Virus record (IMG/VR): IMGVR_UViG_3300022707_002424
Location: 1-27,992 of that record
Source: a virus
DNA length: 27,992 bases
Reading direction: 5' to 3' (one strand)
This document shows, piece by piece, positions 5,266 to 24,710 of the stretch. How positions within the stretch are numbered: the stretch's first letter is position 1; each line of letters begins with the position of its first letter. Below the pieces are notes generated by a model, which worked only from the letters and a program-made list of their open reading frames with translations, did not search any database and was not told where the DNA came from. The translations under genes and the position numbers were made by a program.

Positions 5266-5282
5266 GCTAACAGTTGTATAGT
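5266..5282 (+). promoter_or_regulatory. Late promoter element 1 (portal unit)
   Basis: GCTAACAGTTGTATAGT starts two bases after a stop codon (extended form TAACGCTAACA). The TATA core 5277-5280 is centred about 23 bases before the portal ATG, so the transcript would start at or next to the start codon. Confidence 0.75.
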
Positions 5283-5301
5283 TTGACGTAAAACGGTTCG
5301 T

Positions 5302-7044
5302 ATGGGTTGGCGTAATAGGCTAACAATGGGCCTCAAAAGTATTGGACTCATAGAGATTAGAGAGCCCTACATAGCACAGCGCCAGCAACCTACAAATTCT
5401 CTTAACGTTAATCAACTCAAAACGTCCTTTGCCGAACTCCTACCGCCGGAGAGTTATCCAGGGTCCGTCCAATCCCAGGGACCAACCGCCCCAGGATTAT
5501 CACAACCCGTTTGGGGTCCAGAGATATCGACCGTTGGCAAATACTCGCGCGAGGGCTATACCAGTAAAACTTTCGATAGACCCGTTATTCCATTTCAGCT
5601 TCAAGTCGTCGCTCTGCAAACAGACGAGGACGTTGCATTAGCAATTAATCATTTAGCGTCACAGGTCACAGGTGGCGAACATTATTGGAAGGGAGCTAAT
5701 GAACAAATTACTGAATACATTGAGGATTTCTCAACGAGGATAGACTTTGATGAGCTCGATACAAAAATGGTCAAGGAGCTTTTATGGTTCGGAAATTCAT
5801 TTTGGAAACCCAGGCGAGGCGTTGCGAACATTGAATCAAAAGATGATTTAATGCACATACCCATTTCCAGCGCCGTCCGTATATGGTGGGACAGACAAAG
5901 GATTCCGTACAAGTATGAGTTTAGAGGCGCTGAATACCAAGGCTATCACAATCCAGACGAGATCATTCATTTGAAATGGAATCCAATTAATGCGTCAGCC
6001 TATGGCGTGGGCTTTGGAATTGCCATGACTTCGCCCCATGTATTCCAACAAATTACAGCCAATGGTTTTGAGGAGAATCTTTTACCAAGTCTCCTGGATC
6101 GCAAATATTCCAATCAACAAACAATGCACATCGCAGAGCGTCGCTATACTCCAAGGAACGTGTATGTCGCAAAGGACGCCGATGATGATGAGAGAGCCGA
6201 ATTACAAAGACAGCTCCAGGAGCTTAGACTTGGAGAGGACTTTGTCGCTGGCTCAGCCTTAGAGGTCCAAGAGCTCGGATCGTCTGCGCGCGCGTTTAAC
6301 CCAACACAATTCACAGATACGGTCTTAGGACCTATAATGAAAGCCCTCAATGATTTTAGAGGTAAGCAAGGAACCGAATCGTCTCATCAGTTCGCAAACG
6401 CAAAGACTAGCGCATTGTTGGACCAAATCGGCTTATCGTCATTTCCGCTCACAGTCTCTCGAATGTTAATAGATCAGCTATTCCGCCCCTGGTATGAGTC
6501 CAACCCACTTTATGACCCGAGTTACGGCGGAGGCTATGTGGCTATCCCTTGGAAAGACTGTGATTATGATCTAAACTTTGGTCGAATACAAAAACAAGAC
6601 TTGGACGTAAAAGACCAAATTGAATTAATTAAACTAGCAACCGAGACGGGAGCCGTTGTCAATCCAGTTGAACTAAGAGAATTGTTGGAGGACGCTGGAC
6701 TTGGAGTTAGAGAGGATTACGCCAAGGAGACGGACCAATATTGGAACGGAGCGCCCCCAATGGAGCAAGACCCAGCACTTGATCCTCTATATTCTGACTA
6801 TGCCGGTATCGGTGGCGGACCAATCCCCGATAATTTTACAAATCAAAGCATGGGCTATCCTCCAATGAACGATCCAATCTACAACGACATGATTCAAAAT
6901 GTTCGTGGTCCTAATCCAGCAACGGAGAATAATCCCTTTGTCCCTAATCCTTATTCAGCACAGCCTAGCGACCCACGTCTTAATTTCACAGAGACAGCTA
7001 GACGGAATAGCGCCAAATATCACAACAAGAGGAAATATCAATAA
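5302..7044 (+). CDS. Portal protein
   Basis: The portal is the dodecameric ring at the capsid vertex through which DNA passes. Recognisable features are EEL-type helical wing sequences, the conserved core around residues 150-225 (KELLWFGNSFWKPRR, then DEIIHLKW), the central helix-rich segment TQFTDTVLGPIMKAL with FRGKQG, and the DQLFRPWYE motif before the clip/crown end. At 580 residues it has normal length, with a disordered Pro/Asn-rich C-terminus from about 490. It leads a unit starting with a late promoter and appears leaderless. Confidence 0.9.
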   Translation: MGWRNRLTMGLKSIGLIEIREPYIAQRQQPTNSLNVNQLKTSFAELLPPESYPGSVQSQGPTAPGLSQPVWGPEISTVGKYSREGYTSKTFDRPVIPFQLQVVALQTDEDVALAINHLASQVTGGEHYWKGANEQITEYIEDFSTRIDFDELDTKMVKELLWFGNSFWKPRRGVANIESKDDLMHIPISSAVRIWWDRQRIPYKYEFRGAEYQGYHNPDEIIHLKWNPINASAYGVGFGIAMTSPHVFQQITANGFEENLLPSLLDRKYSNQQTMHIAERRYTPRNVYVAKDADDDERAELQRQLQELRLGEDFVAGSALEVQELGSSARAFNPTQFTDTVLGPIMKALNDFRGKQGTESSHQFANAKTSALLDQIGLSSFPLTVSRMLIDQLFRPWYESNPLYDPSYGGGYVAIPWKDCDYDLNFGRIQKQDLDVKDQIELIKLATETGAVVNPVELRELLEDAGLGVREDYAKETDQYWNGAPPMEQDPALDPLYSDYAGIGGGPIPDNFTNQSMGYPPMNDPIYNDMIQNVRGPNPATENNPFVPNPYSAQPSDPRLNFTETARRNSAKYHNKRKYQ

Positions 7045-7172
7045 TGGTCGGCGTCTATGATGTAGTGACAACCAACGCGGGTCTCATTTGTACGGAGATC
7101 CATGACGCTAATCCAGTAGATGAAACGCAAGTTTATGATTTAGTTGGAATTGATTGGGTGGCTCAACCATGA
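7044..7172 (+). CDS. 42-aa hypothetical protein
   Basis: It starts inside the portal stop (TAATG) and ends in an ATGA overlap with the next ORF. The product MVGVYDVVTTNAG...IDWVAQP is acidic and likely beta-rich, with one cysteine. No family is recognised. Coupled junctions on both sides and lack of an alternative explanation for the 200-base gap after the portal are the evidence that it is translated. Confidence 0.45.
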   Translation: MVGVYDVVTTNAGLICTEIHDANPVDETQVYDLVGIDWVAQP

Positions 7173-7258
7173 CATCTAAAAAAATAAAAAGAGTAGAACG
7201 CGCCGAGCTTAGAAAATTATACAAAGCTATGGGATTGGAGTTAAAAAATGCCCGCTAA
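7169..7258 (+). CDS. 29-aa basic peptide ORF
   Basis: A very short frame, MTSKKIKRVERAELRKLYK and on to NAR, is strongly basic and helical. It starts in an ATGA overlap and overlaps the next gene by 11 bases. It may be a genuine small coupled gene or merely keep ribosomes on the message between portal and the next gene. At this size coding cannot be shown from sequence alone. Confidence 0.35.
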   Translation: MTSKKIKRVERAELRKLYKAMGLELKNAR

Positions 7259-7739
7259 ACTAGACCGTTGTGTTGCTGACGTAAAAGGAGACAAAGGTGT
7301 TGATAACCCCTGGGCCATATGCAACGCGTCCATAAAAGAGTCAGAGGACGATATTTGTCTTAACTGTGGCGAGGCACGCTCACAGCATGGACTATTTACT
7401 GATCATAAATTCGAGGAGGACGTCGAGGAGTTTGAGGACGAGGACGACGATATTGTTATCACCATTTCAGTTGGAGAGACAACTGACAAAGGTCCTAAAC
7501 CAATGCCTCCCGTCAATGTAGTTGAATCTCACAATCCCCTAGACATTCCATTCGGGCGCGAGGTCCCAGGAGATGATGATTCAATCAGCGACGGACTTGA
7601 TGAAGCTGTGGCCATTGGCGGAGGACTCTCAGCCGTATCCATTGGAGGCAAAAAAAAGTTAGAGGAATGTGAGCCATGCCAACACTTTGACGCGGTTCAT
7701 AAAGCTCTAACCACAAAGGCGAGTCATGTCTCAAGTTGA
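7248..7739 (+). CDS. 163-aa acidic head-module protein
   Basis: The first 30 residues (LDRCVADVKGDKG, DNPWAICNAS) match a short cysteine-containing motif often seen at the ends of phage head-morphogenesis and prohead protease proteins. Next comes a CLNCGE knuckle with a possible zinc site, then a very acidic stretch (EEDVEEFEDEDDDI, about 58-71), and a C-terminal CEPC pair near 140-143. It sits between portal and MuF-type protein and overlaps the latter by 14 bases. GGAG at 7237-7240 may be its ribosome site. The role is probably head assembly; details are unknown. Confidence 0.65.
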   Translation: MPAKLDRCVADVKGDKGVDNPWAICNASIKESEDDICLNCGEARSQHGLFTDHKFEEDVEEFEDEDDDIVITISVGETTDKGPKPMPPVNVVESHNPLDIPFGREVPGDDDSISDGLDEAVAIGGGLSAVSIGGKKKLEECEPCQHFDAVHKALTTKASHVSS

Positions 7740-9753
7740 GAATATTCTAGCACGTAACAAACAACTCGAGAACGAGGGAATCCCCGAGCCAGAGAGAGAC
7801 CGTGCGCTTATTGCAGAGTTTGAAGATCCCGTCATAGCTGACGACATTTGGACCAACCAACCTCAAGAGAATGTATTACCAAAACTTACGCTAAAAATTC
7901 CAGACACCGGTTATCCTCCAAAAGTTATGGACCGGGTTGATATTCCAGGACCGTTCGACAATGATGGCTTTGATCACAAAAACCCAGATCCTCAAGGATT
8001 TGCAGGAGGCAGAAACCTCGAGGACCTAAGTCAATACAAAACTAACGCGCCAGAAAATAAAGTTATCAAGTCACAATTAGTTTATGATCCAATGTATGAC
8101 GCAATTAGCAACGACCCAAACTCTGAGCCAAGTATGCACGGCGAGTATGGATTCAATGTGGCCAAAGCTATTCCAGAGTGGCGCTATGATGTAGAACAAG
8201 ACCAGGGCGGAGTTAGAGAACTAGACGAGGGAGGTCCCGGTAGTGGTTGTCATGGTCCTAACTGTGGACGTAAGCCGGGGGGAACGCCCGAGGAATGGAC
8301 CCAAGGATTACAATCTCGCGGAGTTGCGCCCGAACAAATCGAATTAGAATTAATGAAAGCTGACGAACTAATTAACAACGGAGGACAAATGAACACCGAC
8401 GGAACCGTCACTCTCTATCATAGAACAACGCCAGAAGCTAAGGCACAGATTCAACAAACGGGTCAAATGATTGGATTAGAGAACGGCGTATTTTTCTCAA
8501 CGAGTAATAAACCAGGTGGATCGGCGGAGGACTTTGGAACGGCAATTCTAACCGTTGACGTTCCATTAGAGATATTGGAGATTGATGATTTGTTTGGAGA
8601 CGAGGCTCATGTTAGAATCCCAACCACAGGACCAGGAGCTAGCGTCGATGTCTCAGATTATAATTTAAGAGAAACGATGGTCCATGACGACAAGTCACTA
8701 CCTCAAGTTTTAGATCATGCAAGAGAGGAATATCTACAAAGACAATCTGACGGTTATATTGAAATGCCTCACGTAGTTGTAGCTCCGCCAGAAATGCCAG
8801 ACGAGCCACACGTTGTCGTTGAACAAGAGGCATTAGAACCACTTTGGGGAAAATATCATTTAGGTCCTAAACACCCACGCTCTGACATTTGTGATAAATT
8901 CCAAATGAAAGTTTATGATCTTAACATTGAAAAAAACAGACCGGTCCCCCCAAGCGAGGGCCTGGGCTGGACCAACACACACCCTAATTGTCAATGTTAT
9001 TGGTTAATCATTAAACAACCAAGTAAGACGGCAAAAGCTACAAAGCCTCAGATTAAACAATTCCAGAAAATTAATCGACTCATTGGCCAAAAGGCCAGAT
9101 ACGGCACACTACACAAAGTCCACGCCGACGGCAAACTCTACAAGACTATGACTCACAAAAATGTAAGAGAGGCTCTCATGGAAATCAGAGACGAGTTTAG
9201 TTGGCTCCAACCTCAATACTTGGACAAGATTAAAGCAATCAACGCCCCTGGTCGAATGTATTTGATTAGAGCAAGTGAGGAGGCAATCACAGACCACAGA
9301 GGAGAGGGCGAACCATTAAGGCGCTGGCTCTCACCCGACGAGCTTCATGCTATGGCACGGACGGCCGTCAAAAAAGGAATGGATATCAATCATCACCCGG
9401 AATGGCGAACAAACTCAGAGGTCCTAGATTCTGAATATGACAAAATGCTAAAACAAATTCAAATGATTGTCTATGAGGAGGACCAGGAGATTAACGACGC
9501 AATCCAACGCGGAGATATCACAGCCGTCTCAATTAACGGCGGTAGCCCACGAAACGAATCGATCCAATGTCCAGCTTGTCAGTCCTCTACTAATTGCGAG
9601 TGCTTTATTGTCCCCGAGGGAGTAATCCTTGGAGAAGCTGACGACATCGCTCTCACTTGGGTTGTCACTAACCCTACCGGCATAATGTGGCATGGTCAGT
9701 TTATTCCTCCCGCGACCCCAGGAGTCAAGACCACAGCAATCGAGCCTTTGTAG
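7726..9753 (+). CDS. MuF-type minor head protein fused to ART-like and protease-like domains
   Basis: The 675 residues read as several modules. A GGPGSG linker (169-174) with CHGPNC precedes an ADP-ribosyltransferase-like fold: TLYHRTT (R233), GVFFSTS (254-260) and VDVPLEILEIDD. A MuF-type end follows, with HPRSDIC (383-389) and HPNCQC (419-424). Then comes a segment like XkdF or HK97 prohead proteases: INHHPE (H556/H557), DSEYDK, and AVSING with Ser602, 45-46 residues after the His. A CPAC...CEC knuckle (615-626) follows. The protein may enter the capsid, mature it and be delivered to the host. The domain calls are by eye; the third ART residue is not identified. Confidence 0.75.
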   Translation: MSQVENILARNKQLENEGIPEPERDRALIAEFEDPVIADDIWTNQPQENVLPKLTLKIPDTGYPPKVMDRVDIPGPFDNDGFDHKNPDPQGFAGGRNLEDLSQYKTNAPENKVIKSQLVYDPMYDAISNDPNSEPSMHGEYGFNVAKAIPEWRYDVEQDQGGVRELDEGGPGSGCHGPNCGRKPGGTPEEWTQGLQSRGVAPEQIELELMKADELINNGGQMNTDGTVTLYHRTTPEAKAQIQQTGQMIGLENGVFFSTSNKPGGSAEDFGTAILTVDVPLEILEIDDLFGDEAHVRIPTTGPGASVDVSDYNLRETMVHDDKSLPQVLDHAREEYLQRQSDGYIEMPHVVVAPPEMPDEPHVVVEQEALEPLWGKYHLGPKHPRSDICDKFQMKVYDLNIEKNRPVPPSEGLGWTNTHPNCQCYWLIIKQPSKTAKATKPQIKQFQKINRLIGQKARYGTLHKVHADGKLYKTMTHKNVREALMEIRDEFSWLQPQYLDKIKAINAPGRMYLIRASEEAITDHRGEGEPLRRWLSPDELHAMARTAVKKGMDINHHPEWRTNSEVLDSEYDKMLKQIQMIVYEEDQEINDAIQRGDITAVSINGGSPRNESIQCPACQSSTNCECFIVPEGVILGEADDIALTWVVTNPTGIMWHGQFIPPATPGVKTTAIEPL

Positions 9754-9755
9754 TT

Positions 9756-9772
9756 GCTAACACTTGTATAGT
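9756..9772 (+). promoter_or_regulatory. Late promoter element 2 (scaffold gene)
   Basis: GCTAACACTTGTATAGT begins two bases after the preceding stop. The TATA core 9767-9770 is centred about 27 bases before ATG 9796. The 51 bases from here through ATGACCGATTT are about 80% identical, ungapped, to the element before the next gene. Confidence 0.75.
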
Positions 9773-9795
9773 AATACACGCACGACAAATCAAGC

Positions 9796-10731
9796 ATGAC
9801 CGATTTTAAAAAACAACTAGAATCTTGTCGAACACTTACCGAAGCTCAGCCAATCATGGAGGCTTTGAAAGTGCGACCCTCAGAACGAAAATTAATTGAA
9901 ACTGCAATCCAACTCAAAAACAGTCCAGACAATAGACAAAAAGCCTATGGTCTCGACTTCATGCAGACAGCAATTAGAGAGTTAGAGGACGACGAGAAAA
10001 AAAATCTAAAAGAGGACGACGGCGGAGCACACCGAGATCAAGGTGGCGAAGCTGATATTTCGGGAATAATCAAAAAAAATCAAGAGGCCGACATGATAAC
10101 CGGCTCGCTCGACTCACATCAGTCTAGCGATATCGATCAACCTTATCCCAAAGAGGGAACCAATGCCCCTCAGAATGATATCGAGGGAACCGATACCGCA
10201 AGCGGAGAGAATCAAATGGGCGGTATTCGAGAGAATATGCCCCCAGCCCCAGGTATGCAACCAGGTATGCCCCCAATGCCCCCACAACAAATGGGCGGAA
10301 TGGGACAAATGCCCCCGGCTCCTGGTATGCCTCCAATGGCTCCCGACCTTCAAAGACAAATGGCCCCACAAATGCCACAAATGCCCCCGATGAATACACA
10401 GCAACAAATGAGACAAATGCAATATACAATCGACGTCAACTTTAAGAGACTTAACCCTCTTATCCGCGAAGTCAAAAAACTACGTGAGGCTAACATATCC
10501 TTAGACAAAAAAGTCCAAGAGCTCGAAAGTCAAAAAGGCGTGATGAAACTTGATATTGACAAAGTCAAAAACAATTCGATTGTACGCGATCACAATATGC
10601 GAGAGACAACCATGTACGACGGTATAACATTCCCACAACCAACTCAATATACCCGAATGGAGTTAGAGAACAAACGTCAACAAATCGCAGACATCGACAA
10701 AGAGTTAGCTAAAGCAAGTCCATACCAATAA
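9796..10731 (+). CDS. Probable scaffolding protein
   Basis: The 311-residue protein is acidic and low in complexity. A helical N-terminal third is followed by a disordered acidic region (about 70-140), a Met/Pro/Gln-rich stretch (about 145-210, with repeated PPAPGM and QMP units), and a C-terminal coiled-coil segment of about 45 residues (IREVKKLREANISLDKKV). Position immediately before decoration and capsid genes, plus this composition, is typical of scaffolding proteins that template prohead assembly and then leave. It has its own late promoter and a strong poly-T stop, so it may be produced independently of the capsid. Confidence 0.7.
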   Translation: MTDFKKQLESCRTLTEAQPIMEALKVRPSERKLIETAIQLKNSPDNRQKAYGLDFMQTAIRELEDDEKKNLKEDDGGAHRDQGGEADISGIIKKNQEADMITGSLDSHQSSDIDQPYPKEGTNAPQNDIEGTDTASGENQMGGIRENMPPAPGMQPGMPPMPPQQMGGMGQMPPAPGMPPMAPDLQRQMAPQMPQMPPMNTQQQMRQMQYTIDVNFKRLNPLIREVKKLREANISLDKKVQELESQKGVMKLDIDKVKNNSIVRDHNMRETTMYDGITFPQPTQYTRMELENKRQQIADIDKELAKASPYQ

Positions 10732-10736
10732 TCCTC

Positions 10737-10753
10737 TTTTTTCCTTTTTTTTT
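10737..10753 (+). terminator. Poly-T terminator after the scaffold gene
   Basis: T6-CC-T9 begins five bases after the scaffold stop and lies just before the next late promoter. This is the longest T tract in the window and fits archaeal intrinsic termination, separating the scaffold transcript from the decoration/capsid transcript. Confidence 0.65.
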
Positions 10754-10760
10754 CAAATAC

Positions 10761-10777
10761 GCTAACACTTGTATAGT
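10761..10777 (+). promoter_or_regulatory. Late promoter element 3 (decoration/capsid unit)
   Basis: GCTAACACTTGTATAGT, with TATA core 10772-10775 centred about 27 bases before ATG 10801. It is the only visible promoter upstream of the capsid gene. Its surroundings through the start codon closely copy those of element 2. Confidence 0.78.
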
Positions 10778-10800
10778 AACACACGAATCGACGAGTAAGC

Positions 10801-11262
10801 ATGACCGATTTATACCCAGGACTATTCGACGGCGCTATCGATCAAGAGGCGTACGTTGTTAACGCAATCGCAGACGAACAAATCACAATCGGATCACCTG
10901 TGAAATTAGTTGCCCCCGGAGCGGGAACGCAACTGCCAAGAGTTGAGCCCATTGACGCAAGTATTACGGAAGTAATATACGGCGTTTGTGTTGGCGGAGA
11001 CCAAAATGGCACATACGGCGGAGCAAGCGAAATCGCTGGCGAAGCTGGTGATTCTGTTAAGATTTGTGTGAACGGTCGATGTAAGGTAAGAGTTGACGGA
11101 TCAGGGACACCGATAGTTATCGGTAGCCCCTTGAGCGCAAGCACTACGGACGGAGTGGCTGTTATAGCAATCGCGACCGCACACGTATTCGCGCGCGCGC
11201 AACAAGTGTCAACCTCGACTGACTTCATCGCGTGCTTTGTGGACCAGGAGGGAATATTCTAA
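10801..11262 (+). CDS. Capsid decoration (DUF2190-like) protein
   Basis: This 153-residue protein is beta-rich with alternating short strands and glycine turns (ITIGSPVKLV, GEAGDSVKICVNGRCKVRVDG, IVIGSPLSAS, GVAVIAIA). That is the pattern of the DUF2190 or head-stabilising protein group, which cements capsomers. It lies directly before the capsid gene and its stop overlaps the capsid start (TAATG), which would keep the two products in step. The start is leaderless by promoter spacing. A tail-fibre-like beta protein is a less likely alternative. Confidence 0.7.
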   Translation: MTDLYPGLFDGAIDQEAYVVNAIADEQITIGSPVKLVAPGAGTQLPRVEPIDASITEVIYGVCVGGDQNGTYGGASEIAGEAGDSVKICVNGRCKVRVDGSGTPIVIGSPLSASTTDGVAVIAIATAHVFARAQQVSTSTDFIACFVDQEGIF

Positions 11263-12461
11263 TGGGAAAATTCAATTCTGAGAAATGGACTCGCTCAACC
11301 CTAATGGGAATGAGCGAGATGAATCATATCCGCGAAGCTCTAACGCTTGGAGCCGAGGCAACACAGGTCCCCGGACGTCCATTGGACATTTGGAGACCAA
11401 TCCGTGAAACCCCATTGTCAGCATTTTTCGACAAATCTCCGGGCTCAATGCTCGATATGAGATTGAATCCAAATCTGTCAAACATTTGGCATAGCCAGTA
11501 TGGAATTAGAATCGGCGATATGGCCCAAACTAATCCGTACATTGGAGGGAGACAATTACGCGAGACAATCGCTGTCCCCAATACTTTGTCAATTTTGAAA
11601 ATCGCAGATGAGATAATTGAAGGCGCTGAACCTTGGAGTGACTGGAAACAATACTCTCGCTTAATCGACATGGACACACCCAAAGTTAATGTCCCAAAGA
11701 CCAAATATACCGACACAGTTGGAGGCCAAACGGTTGACAACATAGACATCTTTGCTGAGTCGGGCGGTAAGCCCCCAGTAATAGGCGGTAAGATTGAACC
11801 AATAGAGCTAGATTGTAGCAATACAAAAAACAGCTTCAGAGGAACAATCCAGGTCGAGAGGAATGACGTCAAAGACAATAATTTCCTTGCAGTAGAACAA
11901 CCACTCAAAAACGCTGGCAACATGATCTATTTCCTAGTAGGCAATAGAATCATTGGCAACTTGGTAACTACAACCTCAACTAACACAGATACCAAGGCTA
12001 ACCTAGACTTAGCAACCAGCGTTCACGCAGAATTTGAGGCATTGTCAAGAGTAATTCGTAGCTTATTCCCAGGCACTCAGAGAAATCGTGCCGACACGAT
12101 GTTTATCAACCCAGCCGACGCGTTCCTAGCAATAGCAACGTCAACCGGCGCAAGTGGTTCGTATCCATTTTTGTCCCGATTTATCTTAGGACCTACTGAC
12201 AACAAAGACGTTGTCAACAATTCTGGCCTAGCGTCCGCGTTAGGACTGAAAAATGTGTGGGAGACCCCACAGATTGCAGAGGGAACCGTTATGATTACCA
12301 AACGAGACGTTGCCCAAGTGGTAGGACTCAGAGAGGATTTGACACTTGAGAACTTTGACTTAACTGTCGGCGGGCTCTATAATACGGACCTAGTGATTAG
12401 ATTCGACGTTCAGCAAGCATTTGAGGACGGCGCATTTAAAATCACAGCGTTCAACATATAG
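11262..12461 (+). CDS. Probable major capsid protein
   Basis: The 399-residue product has the size, position (after scaffold and decoration) and mixed alpha/beta character of an HK97-fold capsid protein. The N-terminal arm is helical (MNHIREALTLG), and the core includes the segment NTLSILKIADEII and a late domain ending ENFDLTVGG...LVIRFDVQQAF, as in other capsid proteins. The ATG overlaps the decoration stop, and AGGAGGGA at 11246-11253 gives the strongest ribosome binding site seen here, eight bases upstream; a GTG at 11232 is less likely. The fold assignment is by context, not by alignment. Confidence 0.82.
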   Translation: MGKFNSEKWTRSTLMGMSEMNHIREALTLGAEATQVPGRPLDIWRPIRETPLSAFFDKSPGSMLDMRLNPNLSNIWHSQYGIRIGDMAQTNPYIGGRQLRETIAVPNTLSILKIADEIIEGAEPWSDWKQYSRLIDMDTPKVNVPKTKYTDTVGGQTVDNIDIFAESGGKPPVIGGKIEPIELDCSNTKNSFRGTIQVERNDVKDNNFLAVEQPLKNAGNMIYFLVGNRIIGNLVTTTSTNTDTKANLDLATSVHAEFEALSRVIRSLFPGTQRNRADTMFINPADAFLAIATSTGASGSYPFLSRFILGPTDNKDVVNNSGLASALGLKNVWETPQIAEGTVMITKRDVAQVVGLREDLTLENFDLTVGGLYNTDLVIRFDVQQAFEDGAFKITAFNI

Positions 12462-12471
12462 GGAGACTGAC

Positions 12472-12711
12472 ATGGGACAACTAAGCTGTAATCGTTGCGG
12501 AGCAACGGCCGAGGGAGATACCCAAGAGCAAGCGGACGTTCTCATTGACCACGCAAGAGGTCAAATGATTGGACGACCATGTTCGGGCAAACAATCCGAT
12601 CTAGTTTGGAACGGACAAAAAACCGAGCCAAAAGCAGAGACGGATACCGAGCCAGAGAACGCAACTGAAAGCGATAGTCCAACAAAACCAAAAAAATCCA
12701 AACGGAGGTAA
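12472..12711 (+). CDS. 79-aa zinc-knuckle protein with charged tail
   Basis: The N-terminus holds CNRC (residues 6-9) and further along a DHARG and RPC segment that may complete one zinc site (CxxC...H...C). The C-terminal 35 residues are disordered and highly charged (TEPKAETDTEPENATES, then KPKKSKRR), a tail suited to binding DNA or capsid surfaces. GGGAGA at 12461-12466 is a likely ribosome site. It is the last gene of the capsid unit and could be a minor capsid or DNA-associated protein; the family is not recognised. Confidence 0.65.
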   Translation: MGQLSCNRCGATAEGDTQEQADVLIDHARGQMIGRPCSGKQSDLVWNGQKTEPKAETDTEPENATESDSPTKPKKSKRR

Positions 12712-12725
12712 AACTCCAATTTCTA

Positions 12726-12732
12726 TTTTTTT
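12726..12732 (+). terminator. Poly-T terminator after the capsid unit
   Basis: Seven T residues lie 15 bases after the stop of the zinc-knuckle gene, at the start of a 258-base gap. Consistent with archaeal intrinsic termination. Confidence 0.5.
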
Positions 12733-12969: not shown

Positions 12970-12972
12970 GTG

Positions 12973-15076: not shown

Positions 15077-15106
15077 CAGTCTTAATCTATTACACTAACG
15101 AAAATC

Positions 15107-15403: not shown

Positions 15404-15409
15404 ACTCCC

Positions 15410-15417: not shown

Positions 15418-15434
15418 GCTAACACTTGTATAGT
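15418..15434 (+). promoter_or_regulatory. Late promoter element 4 (matrixin gene)
   Basis: GCTAACACTTGTATAGT directly follows the poly-T tract. The TATA core 15429-15432 is centred about 24 bases before ATG 15455. Confidence 0.75.
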
Positions 15435-15454
15435 TTAGATCCCCCATATTTTTC

Positions 15455-16102
15455 ATGCACGATGCGAAGCTTGCGCGGTGTGAATGTTCTAATCAGAATG
15501 ATCAATCTATCCTATTCAAAGAGAACATCGAAGGTATTGCCGAGTGGCCCCATAATTGGCCCGACGGCGTTGTCACTTATCGATTAAACAATTTTTCAGA
15601 GGACTTTGCATATAGTTGGCAAACTCGAGCCATTGTCGTCGCTCTTAGAACTTGGCAACTTAGAATTAACAAATTAAGATTCAGGCGCGAGCGCAACATG
15701 ACCGCGCACGTTGACGCTAACATTTGGTTTAGACCCGCCGAGGCGTTTAGCTCTCCAAACGTATTCGCCCATGCGTGGTTCCCGGGCCAAGGAGAGGTTA
15801 GCGGAGACGTTGAGATAAACGACTCTTGGGATTGGGTCCCTGGTGTGCATTTGTCTCGAATGAATCACCCGCCAATGGTCCCCATTATGGTTCACGAATT
15901 TGGTCATTCTATAATTGGATTGAGGCATGATCCGACAGATAATCGACAAATGATGTTCCCGTCATTTAATATCGGTTCTAAAAAAACAACTCTTGGAGAT
16001 AGAGATATTTTTAGAGCTCAAGATAGACTCGGAGCTAGAACAATACATCAACATATTCTCGATTACTTTATGCGCCGACGTCGAGCGGGTTGGGATTTCT
16101 AA
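15455..16102 (+). CDS. Matrixin-like zinc metalloprotease
   Basis: The 215-residue protein has the matrixin plan. A WP...VTYRLNN start strand and a helix with AIVVALRTWQL lead to strands with IWFRP and GDVEINDSWDW. The zinc helix MVHEFGHSIIGLRHD follows (H147, E148, H151, H158), then a Met-turn (NRQMMFP, 165-169) and a C-terminal helix (GDRDIFRAQDRLG). The zinc motif is HExxHxxxGxxH, one residue longer than canonical. No signal peptide or pro-domain is visible, so it may be virion-borne or released on lysis. It has its own late promoter and could degrade surface-layer proteins. Confidence 0.88.
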   Translation: MHDAKLARCECSNQNDQSILFKENIEGIAEWPHNWPDGVVTYRLNNFSEDFAYSWQTRAIVVALRTWQLRINKLRFRRERNMTAHVDANIWFRPAEAFSSPNVFAHAWFPGQGEVSGDVEINDSWDWVPGVHLSRMNHPPMVPIMVHEFGHSIIGLRHDPTDNRQMMFPSFNIGSKKTTLGDRDIFRAQDRLGARTIHQHILDYFMRRRRAGWDF

Positions 16103-16103
16103 C

Positions 16104-16120
16104 GCTAACAGTTGTATAGT
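16104..16120 (+). promoter_or_regulatory. Late promoter element 5 (fibre unit A)
   Basis: GCTAACAGTTGTATAGT begins two bases after the matrixin stop (extended TAACGCTAACA). The TATA core 16115-16118 is centred about 23 bases before ATG 16140. Confidence 0.75.
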
Positions 16121-16139
16121 ATCTCACTAAGCTAACTCA

Positions 16140-16940
16140 ATGGCCTTTCATCTCTACTCGAGAGGGTCAGCAAGGGGACAATTTCTGCAAAACGTGATAT
16201 TTTTCCCGACCTTTTTGGACGCTGACATTCGCTGGGGTTTTGACGCGATATGGAATATCTCAATAATTTCTAACACTACAATAGCAACTAATGATCTTGA
16301 ATATACAATAGATAACGGAACCACATTTTTTCCTCTCAATGTCTCTGGACCAATCAACGCCTCCGATGAGAGGATATTCAACATAAAGGCCGGAGATAAA
16401 GAGAAATTTAATCTTAGATGTATAGGAGTGAGCGGTTGTACGCTATTTCGTGCTCTGATATCGATTGCGCCCCAGGATATACAGAGACCGAGCCAAGACA
16501 TCACCGTCAATATTCCAACGCCCTTAGACGTCAACATTTGTCCCGTGACTTGCGACGTCCCAATCATCAACGGTTCGATCAGTCCGTTACTCGTATCGGT
16601 TGGAGCTCCGCCAGTTGGAACGCCCAACGGTGTAATTATCCTAAGTAAAACAAATTCAGTCGAGACAGCAAACACGGACATCTCTGGCGTTGATCTATCT
16701 CCCTCGGGAACGAGCCCGGGAGACGCTGTAATATTTCGTATTGAATGGTCGGCTAGTGTTGTCGGAGTTTTGACTATGACACTAGACAGCACTACCTTTG
16801 TAGAGTTTAACAATGGAGCTAATTTAAGAGCCGACTCCTTACATCTCTTTGACGTGGTTGTAGAGGACGGCGATTTATTTAATTTACAATTTAACAAAAA
16901 CACAACGATAAGATTTTTGAGGGTGATCCAAGTATTATGA
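16140..16940 (+). CDS. Virion structural protein with two beta modules
   Basis: The 266-residue protein contains two copies of a beta module of about 70 residues. The first reads ...LEYTIDNGTTFFPLN...RIFNIKAGDKEKFNLRC, the second ...LTMTLDSTTFVEFNNG...LHLFDVVVEDGDLFNLQF and ends FLRVIQVL. A Pro/Ser-rich linker with ISPLLVSVGAPPVGTPNG separates them. The same module forms the next gene. Such 'tlDgttf.. .v.dGd..n.r' modules are common in phage neck, spike or fibre proteins. It starts a long fibre operon and overlaps the next gene by four bases. Confidence 0.65.
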   Translation: MAFHLYSRGSARGQFLQNVIFFPTFLDADIRWGFDAIWNISIISNTTIATNDLEYTIDNGTTFFPLNVSGPINASDERIFNIKAGDKEKFNLRCIGVSGCTLFRALISIAPQDIQRPSQDITVNIPTPLDVNICPVTCDVPIINGSISPLLVSVGAPPVGTPNGVIILSKTNSVETANTDISGVDLSPSGTSPGDAVIFRIEWSASVVGVLTMTLDSTTFVEFNNGANLRADSLHLFDVVVEDGDLFNLQFNKNTTIRFLRVIQVL

Positions 16941-17296
16941 GCTTTCCAGCCCAGGGCTACATTCCGACAACTACTCCCGTCCCCGTACTACGTGATCAAG
17001 TCACGGCTCTATCTAGGACGGCGAATCAAAATTGGTTCGCCTCTGATATTGTGCCAACTGTGGCCTCAGAAAATTCCAGCATTATAGAGATAACGTTTTG
17101 TTTTGAAAAGAGAATTAAAATGGAGGTCACGTTAGACGGGACGACATTTTGCGCACTAAACAATAATCTCCCTATTGAAGCCCAAACAATTAACACCTAT
17201 CAGATTCCCGTACTAAATGGAGACTTGGTAAATTTCAGAGTTAATCTAGCGGGGATCATTCGTTTCGCTAGAGTCACAGAGATTGGAGGTAACTAA
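16937..17296 (+). CDS. 119-aa structural protein, single beta module
   Basis: After an unstructured start of about 35 residues, this protein is one copy of the module found twice in the previous gene: KMEVTLDGTTFCALNNN, TYQIPVLNGDLVNFRVN, IIRFARVTEIGG. It therefore probably arose by duplication. The start lies in an ATGA overlap and the stop in a TAATG overlap; GGAGG at 17285-17289 belongs to the next gene's start. The likely role is a virion accessory or adaptor piece; the exact location is unknown. Confidence 0.65.
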   Translation: MSFPAQGYIPTTTPVPVLRDQVTALSRTANQNWFASDIVPTVASENSSIIEITFCFEKRIKMEVTLDGTTFCALNNNLPIEAQTINTYQIPVLNGDLVNFRVNLAGIIRFARVTEIGGN

Positions 17297-18162: not shown

Positions 18163-18533
18163 CCAAAACTTTTACAGCTCGAGACGGGACTACAATCGAG
18201 GTTCGCTCCGATAAGGCGTGGGAGTGGCGACCCAATAGTTGTCGATGTGATCTAGTGTTTGAAACGGATACTCTTGAGTTAGACTTTGTTATTCATGTGT
18301 GCGAGCTTCATAAGACGGTAGTTGACGGTAGATTGTTCTCCGAAGTTCTCAATCATAATAATACAATAAACACGTCACTCCCTAATCCTCTAAGTGAGGC
18401 TGACAAAACTACGATCTCAACTGCAAGGCGAGCCGAACAACAAAGGATCGAAGCTCTAGGACCGGGAGAGACAAGAGCGGACTCTAACACAAAAGCTAGT
18501 ATAGAGGCTGATCTTAGGGATAAGGGACGTTGA
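18159..18533 (+). CDS. 124-aa fibre-cluster protein with CxC...C..H motif
   Basis: A beta-rich N-terminal half has SCRCDLVFE and VCELH (cysteines around residues 24, 26, 48 and a His at 51), which may bind zinc. The C-terminal half is a charged helix (ADKTTISTARRAEQQRIEAL) ending in a polar tail. Similar small proteins accompany fibre genes in other tailed viruses, but I cannot name a family. It is coupled on both sides (ATGA at the start, TTGA at the end). Confidence 0.6.
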   Translation: MTKTFTARDGTTIEVRSDKAWEWRPNSCRCDLVFETDTLELDFVIHVCELHKTVVDGRLFSEVLNHNNTINTSLPNPLSEADKTTISTARRAEQQRIEALGPGETRADSNTKASIEADLRDKGR

Positions 18534-18739
18534 CCTCTCAAGATGTTATGGACAAAGGATCAGAGCTGAAAAACCTAATCAGCCAAATGTCAAGACTTAT
18601 GATGATAATTGAGAATCCCACAGTTGAGGGCGTGGACATTTCATCGTCTGATTTTACCACTAGATATGACGGTCTTAAAACTGAGCTTGATTCGGCTGAG
18701 ACCGATTACAAAACAACCCGAGACGCCTACACACCCTAA
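18530..18739 (+). CDS. 69-aa helical hypothetical protein
   Basis: The TTG at 18530 overlaps the previous stop as TTGA, a junction also used at 170; ATG 18548 is the alternative start (MDKGSEL). The protein is largely helical, with a repeated charged pattern (LKTELDSAETDYKTTRDAY). No motif is recognised. Its stop codon lies inside late promoter element 6. It is probably a coupled accessory of the fibre unit. Confidence 0.55.
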   Translation: MTSQDVMDKGSELKNLISQMSRLMMIIENPTVEGVDISSSDFTTRYDGLKTELDSAETDYKTTRDAYTP

Positions 18740-18751
18740 CAGTTGTATAGT
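18735..18751 (+). promoter_or_regulatory. Late promoter element 6 (fibre unit B)
   Basis: CCTAACAGTTGTATAGT differs from the others only in its first base. The stop codon of the previous gene (18737-18739) is part of the element. The TATA core 18746-18749 is centred about 26 bases before ATG 18774. Confidence 0.72.
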
Positions 18752-18773
18752 TTAAGACTAACACAAAATCAGC

Positions 18774-20342
18774 ATGGCCGTTATTGGTAATCTGAGAATC
18801 CCTTGGACCACAACTAAATCTCAAGATAATAATTTTGATGTTAGTCGCAATCAATTAACCAATCCCGGTAATCAGATAGAGGTCCTAGACAGCGCCGGAC
18901 TACCGGCAACCGTAATCGATTGGGCTAATGTAGATTTCACTAATGTTGGAGAGATTAACGGAATACCAGTCTCTAATTTTCTAACCGATTTAACAGCCCA
19001 AAATTTAGGAACCTTACTAGACGTTGACGTAACTGTCAGCACGGTTCCAATCGAGGGCGATGTTTTGTTCTATGATGGGGCAATCTGGAATAGATTGCCA
19101 AGAGGCACGGACGGACAATTTTTAAAATCAACCACAACCGGAATCGCCTGGGGGACGGGAACCGCTCAACTCAACGATTTCTCTGACGCTCTGTTTAGAA
19201 TATTCAGCGACGCCGACGCTGGAAAAATCATAGCCTTTGATGTAAGTCAAATTACTAGCGGATTTACTAGGACTTTCACTCTGCCAGACGGGGACGGCGT
19301 ACTCGCCAGAATTTCAGATATTCCAGTTGTTAGCGGTTCGTTTAGCGATACCGCATTTAATGTCTTTAATGACGCCGATACCACTACCAAACTCGAGTTT
19401 CAAATTAGCGGTTTAACTCCTGGTGTAACTAGGACGGCAACGTGGCCAGATAAGGACGGTATTGTAGCCTTTATCTCTGACATTGTCGCCCCAGGTAACA
19501 CGTTCGAGGATAACGTATGGAGAATATTAGACAATGTTGATAACTCAAAACAATTCGCCCTCCAAATGGATCAGCTTACCACAGCGACAACATTCACAAT
19601 TCGTCCATTAACAACGGCTACCAAGACCTTTGATATTCCAGACGCCGTCGATGGCGACGAATTTCTCATGGAGACATTCGCACAGACCGTCCAAAACAAA
19701 ACACTTGACGGAACCAACTCCATAGACGACGGAGCTCTATCTACTAATGTAGTCTTAGAAGATCAAGCTAATACTTACACAGCCGGATCTCTACAACAAT
19801 TCCTCGGAGATATTGCGGGAACGTCTGGATTAAACGTTGGCGGTATTGCTGGCAATCCGTCGTCCCAGGCAGACGGTGACATTTGGCTAAACACATCGAG
19901 TAATCAAATGTTCGCTAGAATCAACGGAGTTGACGTTGATCTTAGTAGCGTCACAATCAAAGACTCGGCCTTTGTTATTACAGCGTCAGATGAATCAACT
20001 GACTTGGATACAACGAACAATCCAAAGACAACATTCCGCATGACGTTTCCATTTACACTCAACACAGGAACCGGCCTAGACCTTGGCGTAAGAGCTAGCG
20101 TTAGAGACGCCCCAACTGGCTCAGATGATATCATTATTGACATCAAACAAAACGGTGTCAGCATATTATCGACGTTGCTACACATTGATCCAGGCGATGA
20201 GGAGAGCGTCTCATCGGCTACACAGGCGGTTATCTCAACCTCGGCTCTAACCGACAATGCAGAGATGAGCGTAGAGATCAATCAAGTTGGCGACACAACT
20301 CCCGGTAACGGACTCAAAGTCTATCTAATCGGAACGAGTTAA
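18774..20342 (+). CDS. Tail fibre protein with three internal repeats
   Basis: After a short N-terminal adaptor region, a pattern of about 50-55 residues repeats: FSDALFRIFSDADAGK...TLPDGDGVLA, then FSDTAFNVFNDADTTTK...TWPDKDGIVA, then a diverged FEDNVWRILDNVDNSK. Such 'F.D..fri.d.aD..k...f......tr..t.PD.dG' repeats are a hallmark of phage tail fibres. A 'QNKTLDGTNSIDDG' turn follows, then a beta-rich C-terminal domain (about 390-522). It leads the second fibre unit from a late promoter and is coupled to the next gene by TAATG. Confidence 0.8.
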   Translation: MAVIGNLRIPWTTTKSQDNNFDVSRNQLTNPGNQIEVLDSAGLPATVIDWANVDFTNVGEINGIPVSNFLTDLTAQNLGTLLDVDVTVSTVPIEGDVLFYDGAIWNRLPRGTDGQFLKSTTTGIAWGTGTAQLNDFSDALFRIFSDADAGKIIAFDVSQITSGFTRTFTLPDGDGVLARISDIPVVSGSFSDTAFNVFNDADTTTKLEFQISGLTPGVTRTATWPDKDGIVAFISDIVAPGNTFEDNVWRILDNVDNSKQFALQMDQLTTATTFTIRPLTTATKTFDIPDAVDGDEFLMETFAQTVQNKTLDGTNSIDDGALSTNVVLEDQANTYTAGSLQQFLGDIAGTSGLNVGGIAGNPSSQADGDIWLNTSSNQMFARINGVDVDLSSVTIKDSAFVITASDESTDLDTTNNPKTTFRMTFPFTLNTGTGLDLGVRASVRDAPTGSDDIIIDIKQNGVSILSTLLHIDPGDEESVSSATQAVISTSALTDNAEMSVEINQVGDTTPGNGLKVYLIGTS

Positions 20343-21409
20343 TGAGCCATTATATTGTCAATCCCTTTTTTCAATTTGGTGGTCCTCCGCCTCCGCCTAC
20401 GCGCAACGCATGGATTGAGGTTGGACGAACCACTCTTGGATCAGCTCAAACAACTATTACAGTTTCGAGTCTCCCAAACAAAAGATACTATATGGTCTTA
20501 ATGTCTTTGTTAGCGGAAGGAGGCAACACAAACGCTAAACTCCGATTCAATGGAGATTCGGGGAACAATTATGCTAGGAGTAATTCAATTAACGGAGCGG
20601 TTGACAACAAAGCGGGTAATCAAAACGAAGTCACTATTAATTTTGGCGGGGCTAATATTACTAACAAGTGGATCTATATGTATATCGATAATAATCCTAA
20701 CGGAGAAAAACTCCTCACGGCTCATTATTTACAACAAGAGGTGGGATCTGGCACAGCCCCCACTAGAACCGAAAGTATAGGTAAATGGATTCTAAAAGAC
20801 ATTCCAGATAATGTCATTTCACAAATACAGATTTTGACAGACGGGGCGGGATCACAATATAGTATAGGCTCTGAAATGGTTGTCTTGGGATTTGATCCGG
20901 CTGACGGACTAGATTCAACCTTTAACTTTTGGCAAGAGCTAGCAAATGTAGAACTAGCGACTCAAGCCGATATCCTCACAGCTAATTTCTCAGCGAGAAA
21001 ATATCTATGGGTTCAAATCCATGTCAAGGCGATTGATGGAACCATTGACACACGAATCCAATTTAACGGGGACGTTGGGACAAATTATGCCAACCGTCAA
21101 AGCAAAAATGGAGGAGCGGACACTACTACTGGCAATCCCGCAACATCTACTCAACCCGATGTCACAATAGGAGATGAACCTCGATTCTATGAGTTTTTTA
21201 TTGTAAATGAAACTAACGAGGAAAAATTAGGAATCAATCATACGGTAGAACAGACAGGACCCGGGGCGGGGAATATCCCTCAAAGACAAGAGAGTGTATT
21301 CAAGTGGATCAATGTAATAGCACAGATCACGACAATAGACGTCAAAAATCAAGGAGGCACAGGTGACTACGCTACCGGATCAAAGATCACAGTATGGGGG
21401 CATGACTAA
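20342..21409 (+). CDS. Receptor-binding candidate: two tandem jelly-roll-like domains
   Basis: The 355 residues form two homologous halves of about 165 residues. Each has a strand with 'lRFNGDsGnNYA', then an 'nG..dn..GN' loop, a 'f.. .yi.N...ekl' strand, 'R.ESi.KW', and an end 'Y..GS...v.G.D'. A third copy lies at the C-terminus of the next protein. A Pro-rich start (GGPPPPPT) follows about 12 residues. The domains probably sit at the tip or side of the fibre and bind surface sugars or protein; that is inference from context. The two halves diverged strongly. Confidence 0.7.
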   Translation: MSHYIVNPFFQFGGPPPPPTRNAWIEVGRTTLGSAQTTITVSSLPNKRYYMVLMSLLAEGGNTNAKLRFNGDSGNNYARSNSINGAVDNKAGNQNEVTINFGGANITNKWIYMYIDNNPNGEKLLTAHYLQQEVGSGTAPTRTESIGKWILKDIPDNVISQIQILTDGAGSQYSIGSEMVVLGFDPADGLDSTFNFWQELANVELATQADILTANFSARKYLWVQIHVKAIDGTIDTRIQFNGDVGTNYANRQSKNGGADTTTGNPATSTQPDVTIGDEPRFYEFFIVNETNEEKLGINHTVEQTGPGAGNIPQRQESVFKWINVIAQITTIDVKNQGGTGDYATGSKITVWGHD

Positions 21410-24400
21410 ATGAGCCAATGGGAATGTCTAGTAGTTAAAAAAGTCGGGGACGATGTTAGCGGAAACTTTGGCGCAAACGCTGGCGGTCTGCCAGACATTA
21501 ACAGATTCGGAGGCTTTGCTCAATTTTCCGATAACATGAATTTCTATACGGGAGATCAAACAAAGTTCGACACTAATTGGATTCCTAACGATACCGTCAG
21601 AGCTAGAGGCAATCCCTCAACTAATGTTATTGATTTTACTTACAATGCTATCTCAGTCAATGGTTCAATAGCTTTTGATTTATGGAGTCACGGGATTTTT
21701 CCAAGCGACACAAATTGGACTCTAAGATTCAAACTCAACTTTGCGACATTGGTAGAGGACACAAATACCGTGATGTATATCGGATTATCAGATAAGGATC
21801 AATCGGCCGGAAGTTCTGACTCACAAGATGGCATATTCCTAAAACCTCGGTTCACGTCTGGAAGGGATTGGAGATTCGTAGATGTCGATAACACGGATCT
21901 TAATGGCGCGGGCGCGGGGGACTTGATAAATGCAGAAGATCCTCTTACTAGCACAGATTACTTTTGTGAATTAAAACGAACGTCTGATATAACTTTCGAG
22001 GCTACGATATTTGTTGATTCTAATTACTCGGTTGTGAGATTCAAAGGTAAAACATCGACCGTCGTTGGCATTGTCGATTTACGTTTCATAAAGATCACAA
22101 ACGCGAATCTTACCCAAGTAGGAAATATGACGGGAACCGTTGACGACGTACAATTTTTCAACGATACCGAAGGGACATTTACTGATCTTGTTTTGCATGG
22201 AGACGAGGATCTAACTCCGCCAAGTGTATTTCTCCCAGGAGGAGCCACGAAAGTAATCACGGGAGCTGACGACGCTAATTGGGTAGTAATCGGAGGAATA
22301 ACTGTCTCGGGGGGAATTATCAACGGTTGGTTTAACGGTGGCGGAGGCGTAAATCGGAGAGCTGGGGCCTATGACTTGGACGCTAATGACGGAATCACAT
22401 TAGATGATCTTAACTGGACCATTGACTTTGAATTTGAGCGAACCGATAATGACACTAATCCGTCAGCCCTTCCATTTACTGTCCAAGCTGATCCCTTCGA
22501 TATAGATCCCACAAACAACTCTGGCAATACTTTTGGAATCGGATTCAAATATGGTCTTAACGTAGTCAATGGACAAAAGGCTATTCTAATTTTCTCTAAT
22601 GGCTCAGGGGATTTTGGCACACCCGCCGACTCGAACCACGTTACAAATGATCCGTCGCAAGATATCTTCATCGCACAAAATGTCCCGGTCTTTATGAGGT
22701 TAATGAGAATTAACGGAACGAAAATAGTTTTGGAAGTCTATACCGATTCAAACAGAACGACTCTTTTAGGCAGACTTGAATTAAACGGTGTCCCTTCAAC
22801 TATCAATACACTAACCTGGATTAATTCGGCTAACTCGACTAACGCTGGCATGGGACGAATCATTAATGGCACACTAAGGGATATTAGAATTTTCAACGGA
22901 GTCGCCGGGGCGTTTGACGGAGGCATAATATTAGACGAGGATTTCTCAACCTATGGAACCCCGGTAAATCCAAATTTTACAGACAGCTTTGACAGCGCTA
23001 CTGGCTGGACCACAACTGACTCAACAAGAGTCCGAATTGAGGACGATCAAGGCTTTTTGTTTATGATGGCAGTAGCTGACCTCTCTAATGACGCCATCGC
23101 TTTTGACTTGGGAGCTACTGTTAATCCTGGTCCAAATATTGTCAGCGATACAGAATGGATCTTACGATATAAAATATCATTCCAAGTCGTAGATGATGGC
23201 GCTAGCTCAGCAAACAAATCGGTTATTGTTGGACTGTTTGACGGGGATCAGACAGTAGATTCTAGTGTTAATCAGGATTGTATTTGTCAAATTTGGTTAT
23301 TAGATAATACGAAGGCAGAATTAAGACTCGTCAGAACTAACAACGCTGTGCCAGAAGATAACGCTAATGTGGACAAGACAATACTCAATATAATTACTAC
23401 GAGAACATTTTACACCGAATTAAAAAGGACTGGCTCGAACTCTTACGAAATGTCCATTTACGACGACGCACAATATAGTAATCTAATCAACCGTCAAGTT
23501 GGCACGTTGTCACTCTCAGGTATAATCAATTTGAGATATCTGAAAGTATTGAATGAAGTCTCGCAGAACGGAGCTGGTCAACTAGACGCTACCATTGACG
23601 ATATTCAGTTTTGGGACGGAAGGAGTACGACCTGTGATGTCGATGTAGCTAACCCTTGGATTACAACTGACTCGGACTTGTGGGACGTTGAAATTTGTCA
23701 GGAAAATATACAGTATAGACTAGAGGGGGACGGCACAACCGGAACCGATGTATTGTCTTTAGATTTGGGAAATCCGCTAGCAACCCAATGGGTAATGAGA
23801 TGGGTTCAAACTGTTTTGGAGTTTGATGATTCTGACACCGTTAGTATAGCGATGTATGTCGGCCTCTCTGATAACGATGATGGGAGGGACACCGTACAGG
23901 ATTCAATATTTATGACAATGGTTCTCGATTTCAACGGACCAACGCAGTTCAGAACTCATGTGACAAACGGCACAAATATTGGCGGTGGGGTCCAAGGGAC
24001 GATATTTACTTTTGTTCCGCAACTAGGGAAATTCTATTGGGAGCTAATTCGTTTATCAAACACCCAAATCCAACTAAGCTTATTTTCTGACGAAAATTAC
24101 ACGTTCCTAATTGAAACTCGTATAGAGACAATTAATGCCAATATAGTAAGTCTCCAATTTGTTAAACTCATTCAAGGGAGTCAAGTATCTACTAATTTCG
24201 CTACGGGTCAGATTGACGACATTAAAATTTGGGACGGAGTGGACGTGGCTGACTCTTTTGACGCCAGGCGATATCTCCAAGTCCTAACAACTGGAATCGG
24301 AAGCTCGGGATTCATAAATTGGGAGCATAGGTATAATCTTGACAATGAAGATAATTACGCCAACCGTCAGTCATTTAACGGAGGAGCTGACACAACTTTT

Positions 24401-24673
24401 GGAAATCAGACGTTTGCCCATTTGCTAAACCTAAACGCTCAAGAGGCCATATTTGGAGATACTTCGATTTACAATAGACTTGACGACGTGAAGATCGTTC
24501 AAACTCATATAGATAGCATTGGAATAATAGGTTCAAGTAATCCGCCAAACAGAATCGAGATAGCTACAAAATGGGCTAATCAACTTACAAAAATTTCACG
24601 AATATCAATAATCAATAGTTCATCAGGTGTATTGGACACCGACACGGAGGCCGTTGTGTTTGGCTCAGAGTAA
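21410..24673 (+). CDS. Large adhesin-like fibre with four LamG-like domains
   Basis: The 1087-residue protein is built from four repeats of about 210 residues (roughly 40-257, 288-500, 520-738, 744-945). Each has a concanavalin/laminin-G-like pattern: 'w.. .D...FDLG', 'W.lRfk..f', 'vGLsD.Dq..ds..D.if', 'f..eLkRt....f...iy.d..y', 'Gti.dIqf.dG'. A last domain (about 950-1087) copies the module of the preceding gene (NYANRQSFNGGADTT). Such folds bind glycans. It is probably the largest fibre or spike. It begins one base after the previous stop and ends two bases before the last late promoter. Confidence 0.78.
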   Translation: MSQWECLVVKKVGDDVSGNFGANAGGLPDINRFGGFAQFSDNMNFYTGDQTKFDTNWIPNDTVRARGNPSTNVIDFTYNAISVNGSIAFDLWSHGIFPSDTNWTLRFKLNFATLVEDTNTVMYIGLSDKDQSAGSSDSQDGIFLKPRFTSGRDWRFVDVDNTDLNGAGAGDLINAEDPLTSTDYFCELKRTSDITFEATIFVDSNYSVVRFKGKTSTVVGIVDLRFIKITNANLTQVGNMTGTVDDVQFFNDTEGTFTDLVLHGDEDLTPPSVFLPGGATKVITGADDANWVVIGGITVSGGIINGWFNGGGGVNRRAGAYDLDANDGITLDDLNWTIDFEFERTDNDTNPSALPFTVQADPFDIDPTNNSGNTFGIGFKYGLNVVNGQKAILIFSNGSGDFGTPADSNHVTNDPSQDIFIAQNVPVFMRLMRINGTKIVLEVYTDSNRTTLLGRLELNGVPSTINTLTWINSANSTNAGMGRIINGTLRDIRIFNGVAGAFDGGIILDEDFSTYGTPVNPNFTDSFDSATGWTTTDSTRVRIEDDQGFLFMMAVADLSNDAIAFDLGATVNPGPNIVSDTEWILRYKISFQVVDDGASSANKSVIVGLFDGDQTVDSSVNQDCICQIWLLDNTKAELRLVRTNNAVPEDNANVDKTILNIITTRTFYTELKRTGSNSYEMSIYDDAQYSNLINRQVGTLSLSGIINLRYLKVLNEVSQNGAGQLDATIDDIQFWDGRSTTCDVDVANPWITTDSDLWDVEICQENIQYRLEGDGTTGTDVLSLDLGNPLATQWVMRWVQTVLEFDDSDTVSIAMYVGLSDNDDGRDTVQDSIFMTMVLDFNGPTQFRTHVTNGTNIGGGVQGTIFTFVPQLGKFYWELIRLSNTQIQLSLFSDENYTFLIETRIETINANIVSLQFVKLIQGSQVSTNFATGQIDDIKIWDGVDVADSFDARRYLQVLTTGIGSSGFINWEHRYNLDNEDNYANRQSFNGGADTTFGNQTFAHLLNLNAQEAIFGDTSIYNRLDDVKIVQTHIDSIGIIGSSNPPNRIEIATKWANQLTKISRISIINSSSGVLDTDTEAVVFGSE

Positions 24674-24674
24674 C

Positions 24675-24691
24675 GCTAACACTTGTATAAT
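24675..24691 (+). promoter_or_regulatory. Late promoter element 7 (connector/tail unit)
   Basis: GCTAACACTTGTATAAT, with one base different from the consensus near the end. It starts two bases after the previous stop (extended TAACGCTAACA). The TATA core 24686-24689 is centred about 23 bases before ATG 24711. GGGAGGA at 24694-24700 would lie upstream of the predicted transcript start. Confidence 0.72.
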
Positions 24692-24710
24692 TTGGGAGGA
24701 ATGGTAAATC

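Follow-up and report, generated by a model that had tools for sequence, protein, structure and literature searches.

Short repeated promoter-like elements precede virion genes in tailed viruses of probable archaeal hosts and differ from one viral lineage to the next

Results

Gene content of the window and placement of the repeated element

The window, i.e. the whole stretch of DNA analysed here, is the complete IMG/VR record IMGVR_UViG_3300022707_002424, a viral fragment of 27,992 bases that carries mostly virion genes. The gene for the terminase large subunit (TerL; 1692-3476, + strand; PHROG 675, E 2e-31) has no repeated element in front of it. Downstream, seven copies of a short element were found on the + strand, each heading a gene or group of genes. 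Copy 1 (5266-5282, with G at position 8) heads a portal-like gene (5302-7044), the same gene that is preceded by an element in relatives, and copy 2 (9756-9772, C) heads a gene in the scaffold position (9796-10731). Copy 3 (10761-10777, C) precedes the genes encoding a structural cement-like protein (10801-11262) and the major capsid protein (MCP; 11262-12461), copy 4 (15418-15434, C) a matrixin (M10 peptidase) gene (15455-16102), copy 5 (16104-16120, G) the gene at 16140-16940, and copy 6 (18735-18751, first base C and G at position 8) the gene at 18774-20342. Copy 7 (24675-24691, C, with a TATAAT end) heads a small open reading frame (ORF; 24711-24863), followed by a run of tail-type genes (24863-27992, + strand) which ends with the window and whose members are for the most part conserved across 12 or 13 of the 15 genomes. 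Copies 5266, 9756, 16104 and 24675 start 2 or 3 bases past the stop codon of the preceding gene (2 bases in the case of 16104) and copy 18735 overlaps the end of the preceding ORF; copies 10761 and 15418 come after T-runs that could be terminators.

The portal, cement and MCP assignments were weaker than that of TerL. The portal (+ strand) was called from two alignment members matching PHROG 64 (portal; best E 0.015) together with synteny, and the cement-like protein (+ strand) from a match to PF22758 (E 3.7e-4) that falls under the curated cut-off, together with gene order. Weak matches plus synteny also identified the MCP (+ strand): 11 of 13 members matched PHROG 371 (major head protein; best E 0.0043), PHROG 544 and 1650 were matched as well, and the best E values across the three families were about 0.002-0.004. 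AlphaFold models of the MCP and portal, built on shallow alignments, were too poor for use (mean pLDDT of 38 and 37, respectively), and a PDB sequence search with the same two proteins returned nothing meaningful. The element-headed matrixin metalloprotease, which has a relative in genome G005, is unusual for a tailed virus.

Sequence and spacing of the element

A search of the window with GCTAACASTTGTATAGT allowing up to three mismatches yielded exactly seven matches, all on the + strand and starting at 5266, 9756, 10761, 15418, 16104, 18735 and 24675, while 100 dinucleotide shuffles gave a mean of 0.07 matches, a maximum of 2 and never 7. The seven copies listed in the initial annotation were thus recovered exactly. 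The 17-base repeat described there proved to be repeated as claimed; its conserved part, however, is a block of 16 bases, CTAACA(C/G)TTGTATA(G/A)T, corresponding to motif positions 2-17, the first base lying outside it. Two sites vary inside the block in the seven-copy alignment, namely position 8 (C in four copies, G in three) and position 16, where copy 24675 has A in place of G; copy 18735 differs by its first base, C. Both flanks fall to background conservation within a few bases of the block, no further conserved bases were seen beyond the BRE/TATA register, and inspection of the element revealed neither an inverted nor a tandem repeat. Both in the window and in its sister contig, the portal copies carry G at position 8 and the scaffold and cement copies C, an alternation that looks gene-specific.

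In coordinate order, the motif begins 36, 40, 40, 37, 36, 39 and 36 bases ahead of the start codon. TTGTATAG is centred 24.5-28.5 bases upstream of that codon, close to the 23-28 bases first reported, and AACA begins 33-37 bases upstream of it. For copy 24675, the start was set at 24711, since the ATG at 24700 opens just 8 codons and a 52-residue counterpart of this ORF of about 50 residues is found behind an element in G005. The window copies combine a TATA-like core with a purine/A-rich BRE directly upstream, a combination that is weaker in two of the related lineages described below (E3 and E7). In host intergenic regions, positions -34 to -32 relative to start codons are A-rich and positions -30 to -24 A/T-rich, which places the viral element in the BRE/TATA register and agrees with its earlier description as promoter-like and archaeal. 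In the window and in relatives alike, the spacing between element and start codon is compatible with a leaderless start. Of the seven headed genes, six show no Shine-Dalgarno match and one has a GGGAGG well ahead of its start; a match of at least four bases precedes 13 of the 24 other genes. As regards geometry, then (36-40 bases from motif start to start codon, six of seven genes devoid of a Shine-Dalgarno match), the leaderless mRNAs proposed in the initial annotation appear plausible.

Different elements occupy the same places in related viruses

The initial annotation had suggested searching related contigs with the pattern. MCP relatives were found at 49 viral loci. The sister contig (L006/L014; TerL 91% identical) carries the identical element before identical genes, but the wider virus group was found to have other elements in the same place, a real finding that the initial annotation had missed. 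Viruses whose MCP is 83-87% identical to that of the window display AAAACACTTGTATAGT, ATAACACTTGTATAGT or ATAACCCTTGTATAGT at corresponding places, and two viruses with an MCP 57-58% identical display TTAATACTTGTATA or TTTAACACTTGTATA; together with the window, these relatives form class E1, with the common core CTTGTATA. At least nine lineages with the same virion genes carry a different element of 12-16 bases in the same place, i.e. before the portal, scaffold, cement/MCP and tail genes, with up to 13 repeats per genome. These are AACACTCAAATA in G009 (E3), AACACTGATATA in G031 (E4), AAATGCATATAW in G024, G025, L033 and others (E5), AATACCYTTAWY in G018, G021, G029 and others (E6), TAGTTCTCTTTA in G030 and L024 (E7) and AAACAGTTTTATCC in L018, L021 and kin (E8), to which are added further versions in L048/L023/L025 and in L029/L050 and kin, and yet another element, present as a single copy, in L051. 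In G009 and G031, the element of the MCP operon differs from that of the other virion genes.

When all elements were tabulated against all records counting only copies at promoter distance, the resulting table was close to block-diagonal and cross-lineage matches at promoter position were near zero; total counts at one mismatch include chance matches off this position. A search of viral contigs with the 16-mer returned 53 contig stretches, among which positioned copies in true relatives were limited to L178 (three copies), L286 and L322. A similar search of all viral contigs with a 14-mer was dropped, as a sequence of this length is too short and its matches were mostly single chance hits.

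Because the window holds mostly virion genes, the absence of the element from early genes could be assessed only in relatives. Among 11 long related contigs, 78 of the 82 positioned copies fell in the virion module, in line with the initial annotation's view that the element marks virion genes. This module represents 58% of the sequence length and 43% of the genes predicted, giving binomial tails of 4e-14 and 6e-24, respectively, values that are indicative since the module borders were partly set by hand from marker genes. The four other copies were in G018, G021, G024 and G030. Spacing was again narrow, with element-to-start distances of 32-33 in nearly all E6 copies, GTG and TTG starts included, 34-36 in nearly all E5 copies and 33-38 in E1.

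Element classes on gene trees

Maximum-likelihood trees (quick search) were built for the MCP, portal and TerL. The element classes require nine changes on the MCP tree and eight on the portal tree, which is the minimum for the 10 and 9 classes represented, and eight on the TerL tree against a minimum of seven. E1 occupies more than one clade of the MCP tree and therefore may be ancestral. Genome G003 (L012/L033), which offers a natural test, has a TerL 69-71% identical to that of E6 viruses and 32-34% identical to that of E5 viruses, and a portal 62-81% identical to that of E5 viruses. The TerS-TerL pair is headed by E6 in E6 viruses and, in G003, by TAATGCATATAT, which matches E5 but for one base, so that the swapped-in terminase of G003 (L012 2121-4221, equivalent to L033 451-2551) sits behind a resident-type element. 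Either the incoming terminase was placed behind a resident promoter or its own promoter was replaced, and both scenarios fit a need to match the resident element. Gene conversion by itself is an unlikely source of such concerted evolution, given that homogenisation is limited to about 16 bases and spares their flanks. The same contig carries three tandem extra cement-like genes between terminase and portal (L012 4434-6199), the first with its own element.

Probable host and host promoters

Only four relatives of TerL were found among 84,980 bacterial and archaeal species genomes, all of them thaumarchaeal (two named as Nitrosopumilus or Nitrosopumilales, one from Marine Group I and one with no label beyond Thaumarchaeota). 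On account of these terminases, 44-46% identical, the host is most likely a Nitrosopumilales-type ammonia-oxidising archaeon, and a reading of the element as a bacterial -10 or extended -10 promoter was rejected on the same grounds. Terminase matches occurred in 26 of 250 host-family genomes. The MCP was found in none of the 250, nor in genome contigs, so that a provirus with this capsid is absent from the genomes searched. On host-family chromosomes, TerS-TerL pairs related to those of this virus were noted standing alone (L136 4866-7059, L139 10446-12661, L141 15547-17809 and L142 6958-9262); their flanks look cellular and lack an MCP gene, and they are possibly domesticated or relict terminases.

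The E1 14-mer had two matches in the 250 host-family genomes, both antisense inside ORFs. The E6 12-mer was matched 19 times across 61 host genomes, less often than the reversed control, to be compared with several copies in a single 48-kb virus, and most element classes showed no promoter enrichment in 376 kb of host DNA. The elements tested thus appear not to serve as promoters in these host genomes, which stand in for the true host of each lineage, and within this set the earlier claim of a virus-specific element holds.

Candidates for a recognising factor

Neither a viral TFB (PF00382; 0 of 37 viral records) nor a viral TBP (PF00352; 0 of 20) was detected in records many of which are fragments, the controls of both searches being positive. 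Among the non-virion genes of the window and of four E1 viruses, Pfam matches comprised methylases, queuosine genes, ParB-like and nuclease domains and included no clear transcription factor or DNA-binding regulator. At blastp level, no non-virion gene family was widely shared across these genomes; a single orthologous viral factor is thus not visible, and a viral factor, if present, would need either to evolve rapidly or to have its gene within the virion region. Two small proteins that look zinc-binding, encoded at 3636-3845 and 12478-12711 of the window, have counterparts in 7 and 11 of the 15 genomes, respectively, and are candidates only.

Discussion

From the sequences compared here we infer promoter activity, leaderless starts, late timing and a trans-acting factor; the late timing and the single switch of the initial annotation stay hypothetical. 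In a tailed virus, most likely of Nitrosopumilales-type archaea, the element probably serves as a BRE/TATA core promoter from which virion genes are transcribed into leaderless mRNAs. It covers both the BRE and the TATA positions and would govern a virion-gene regulon, the host RNA polymerase starting at, or a few bases from, the start codon. The invariant 16 bases, uniform within a genome and different between lineages, would be recognised by a sequence-specific initiation or activator factor supplied or redirected by the virus. All virion promoters would then be obliged to match this factor, so that a change of factor would entail a change of the entire promoter set. Weighing against this reading are the four positioned copies outside the virion module, the distinct MCP-operon element of G009 and G031, the negative searches for a viral TFB, TBP or other regulator in the records surveyed, non-virion families that are not widely shared, and a host assignment based on terminases 44-46% identical.

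A somewhat unlikely explanation is that the elements are ordinary host-type BRE/TATA promoters tuned in each virus to one host TFB paralogue, lineage differences reflecting host switching with no virus-specific factor. TFIIB-repeat matches number 10-24 per host genome, equivalent to roughly 5-12 TFB genes, and this multiplicity keeps the explanation alive, as do the coincidence of the element with the BRE/TATA position of host promoters and the failure to find a viral factor in the records surveyed. Yet the elements exceed host TATA boxes by far in length and exactness, and neither E1, E6 nor most other classes were enriched at promoters in the host sequences searched, taken as proxies for the lineages' true hosts. 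That the element is instead the operator of a virus repressor or activator acting over a generic promoter, as proposed for early genes of Sulfolobales viruses, seems to us distinctly improbable. PMC11065993 reports repeated, virus-specific sequences with a regulatory role near early promoters, and TAGTTCTCTTTA (G030) and AACACTCAAATA (G009) resemble TATA little; a repressor site, on the other hand, could do without constant spacing from the start codon, and the element has neither the internal repeats nor the additional conserved bases outside the BRE/TATA register. There is very little to recommend the view that the repeats are recombination, packaging or replication sites in DNA, or RNA leader motifs, and not promoters at all. 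Short repeats at gene borders could promote module exchange, and exchange is seen in the TerL swap, but the repeats are strand-specific, locked to start codons that include GTG and TTG, almost confined to virion genes, and embedded in flanks that are not homogenised.

Returning to the core-promoter reading, the distribution of elements suggests a private promoter code in each lineage. As a more tentative extension, which we regard as possible without favouring it, each lineage may have its own promoter-recognition factor overriding or replacing host TBP/TFB specificity at virion genes, factor and promoter set changing together to generate at least nine mutually private codes. If true, these codes would be the archaeal counterpart of the divergence of T7-type polymerase/promoter pairs. 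The promoters of T7-like phages and the late promoters of T4 are short exact sets distributed genome-wide, which diverge between phage lineages with their recogniser, a phage RNA polymerase or sigma factor, in bacterial systems. The present elements likewise form short, exact, genome-wide sets, but no equivalent recogniser was found.

Virus-wide repeated promoter elements are already known in archaeal viruses, namely HF2 and those of Sulfolobales. According to the part of PMC8707807 devoted to them, the class II intergenic repeats of halovirus HF2 (29 bp, two near-identical copies in the morphogenesis region) carry late-region promoters with a TATA box at -19 to -26 and activity shown with a reporter, one of them driving a 35-kb late transcript. 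Like the elements described here, they are virus-specific repeats among the morphogenesis genes of a tailed virus of archaea; HF2, however, is a haloarchaeal virus, and that part of the report describes no lineage-by-lineage replacement of the core. The early elements of SIRV2 and other Sulfolobales viruses resemble ours in that a near-identical element, with a consensus for each virus, precedes many genes of one temporal class. As presented in the relevant portion of PMC11065993, though, their TATA/BRE core is highly similar and their flanks vary, whereas here the core changes and the flanks are mostly unconserved, and they precede early anti-defence genes where ours precede virion genes. The GTC element of SIRV1 and SIRV2 (Kessler et al. 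2004, as summarised in PMC5569661) is also a virus-specific cis element tied to an archaeal core promoter; unlike the present elements, it is a small addition of three bases downstream of a normal TATA box. Two features set the present elements apart from known systems: the core is exchanged from one lineage to another, gene content and position being kept, and the genes so marked are virion genes. We encountered no account of these elements in the open-access papers searched, and very little published work on gene timing in the tailed viruses that infect ammonia-oxidising archaea.

Uniform within each genome but replaced wholesale from lineage to lineage, these promoter sets provide a natural experiment on the evolution of promoter recognition in archaea. 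The elements further allow virion operons to be called, and fragments to be assigned to lineages, from sequence alone, and offer a bait for the recognising factor.

Other arrangements were noted in some relatives. The cement/MCP operons of G009 (L090 12188) and G031 (11978) carry a bipartite element, GAAAYACTTAGTCSCYTATATA. Upstream of the cement gene of L027, L028, L029, L050 and L055, the spacer between element and ATG is conserved too (TTCGAGNGCGATT-type), which is not so in the lineage of the window. Finally, a second repeated sequence, AAAACTATACGG, precedes TerS and a small gene in G006 (19717 and 22106) and is possibly another promoter class.
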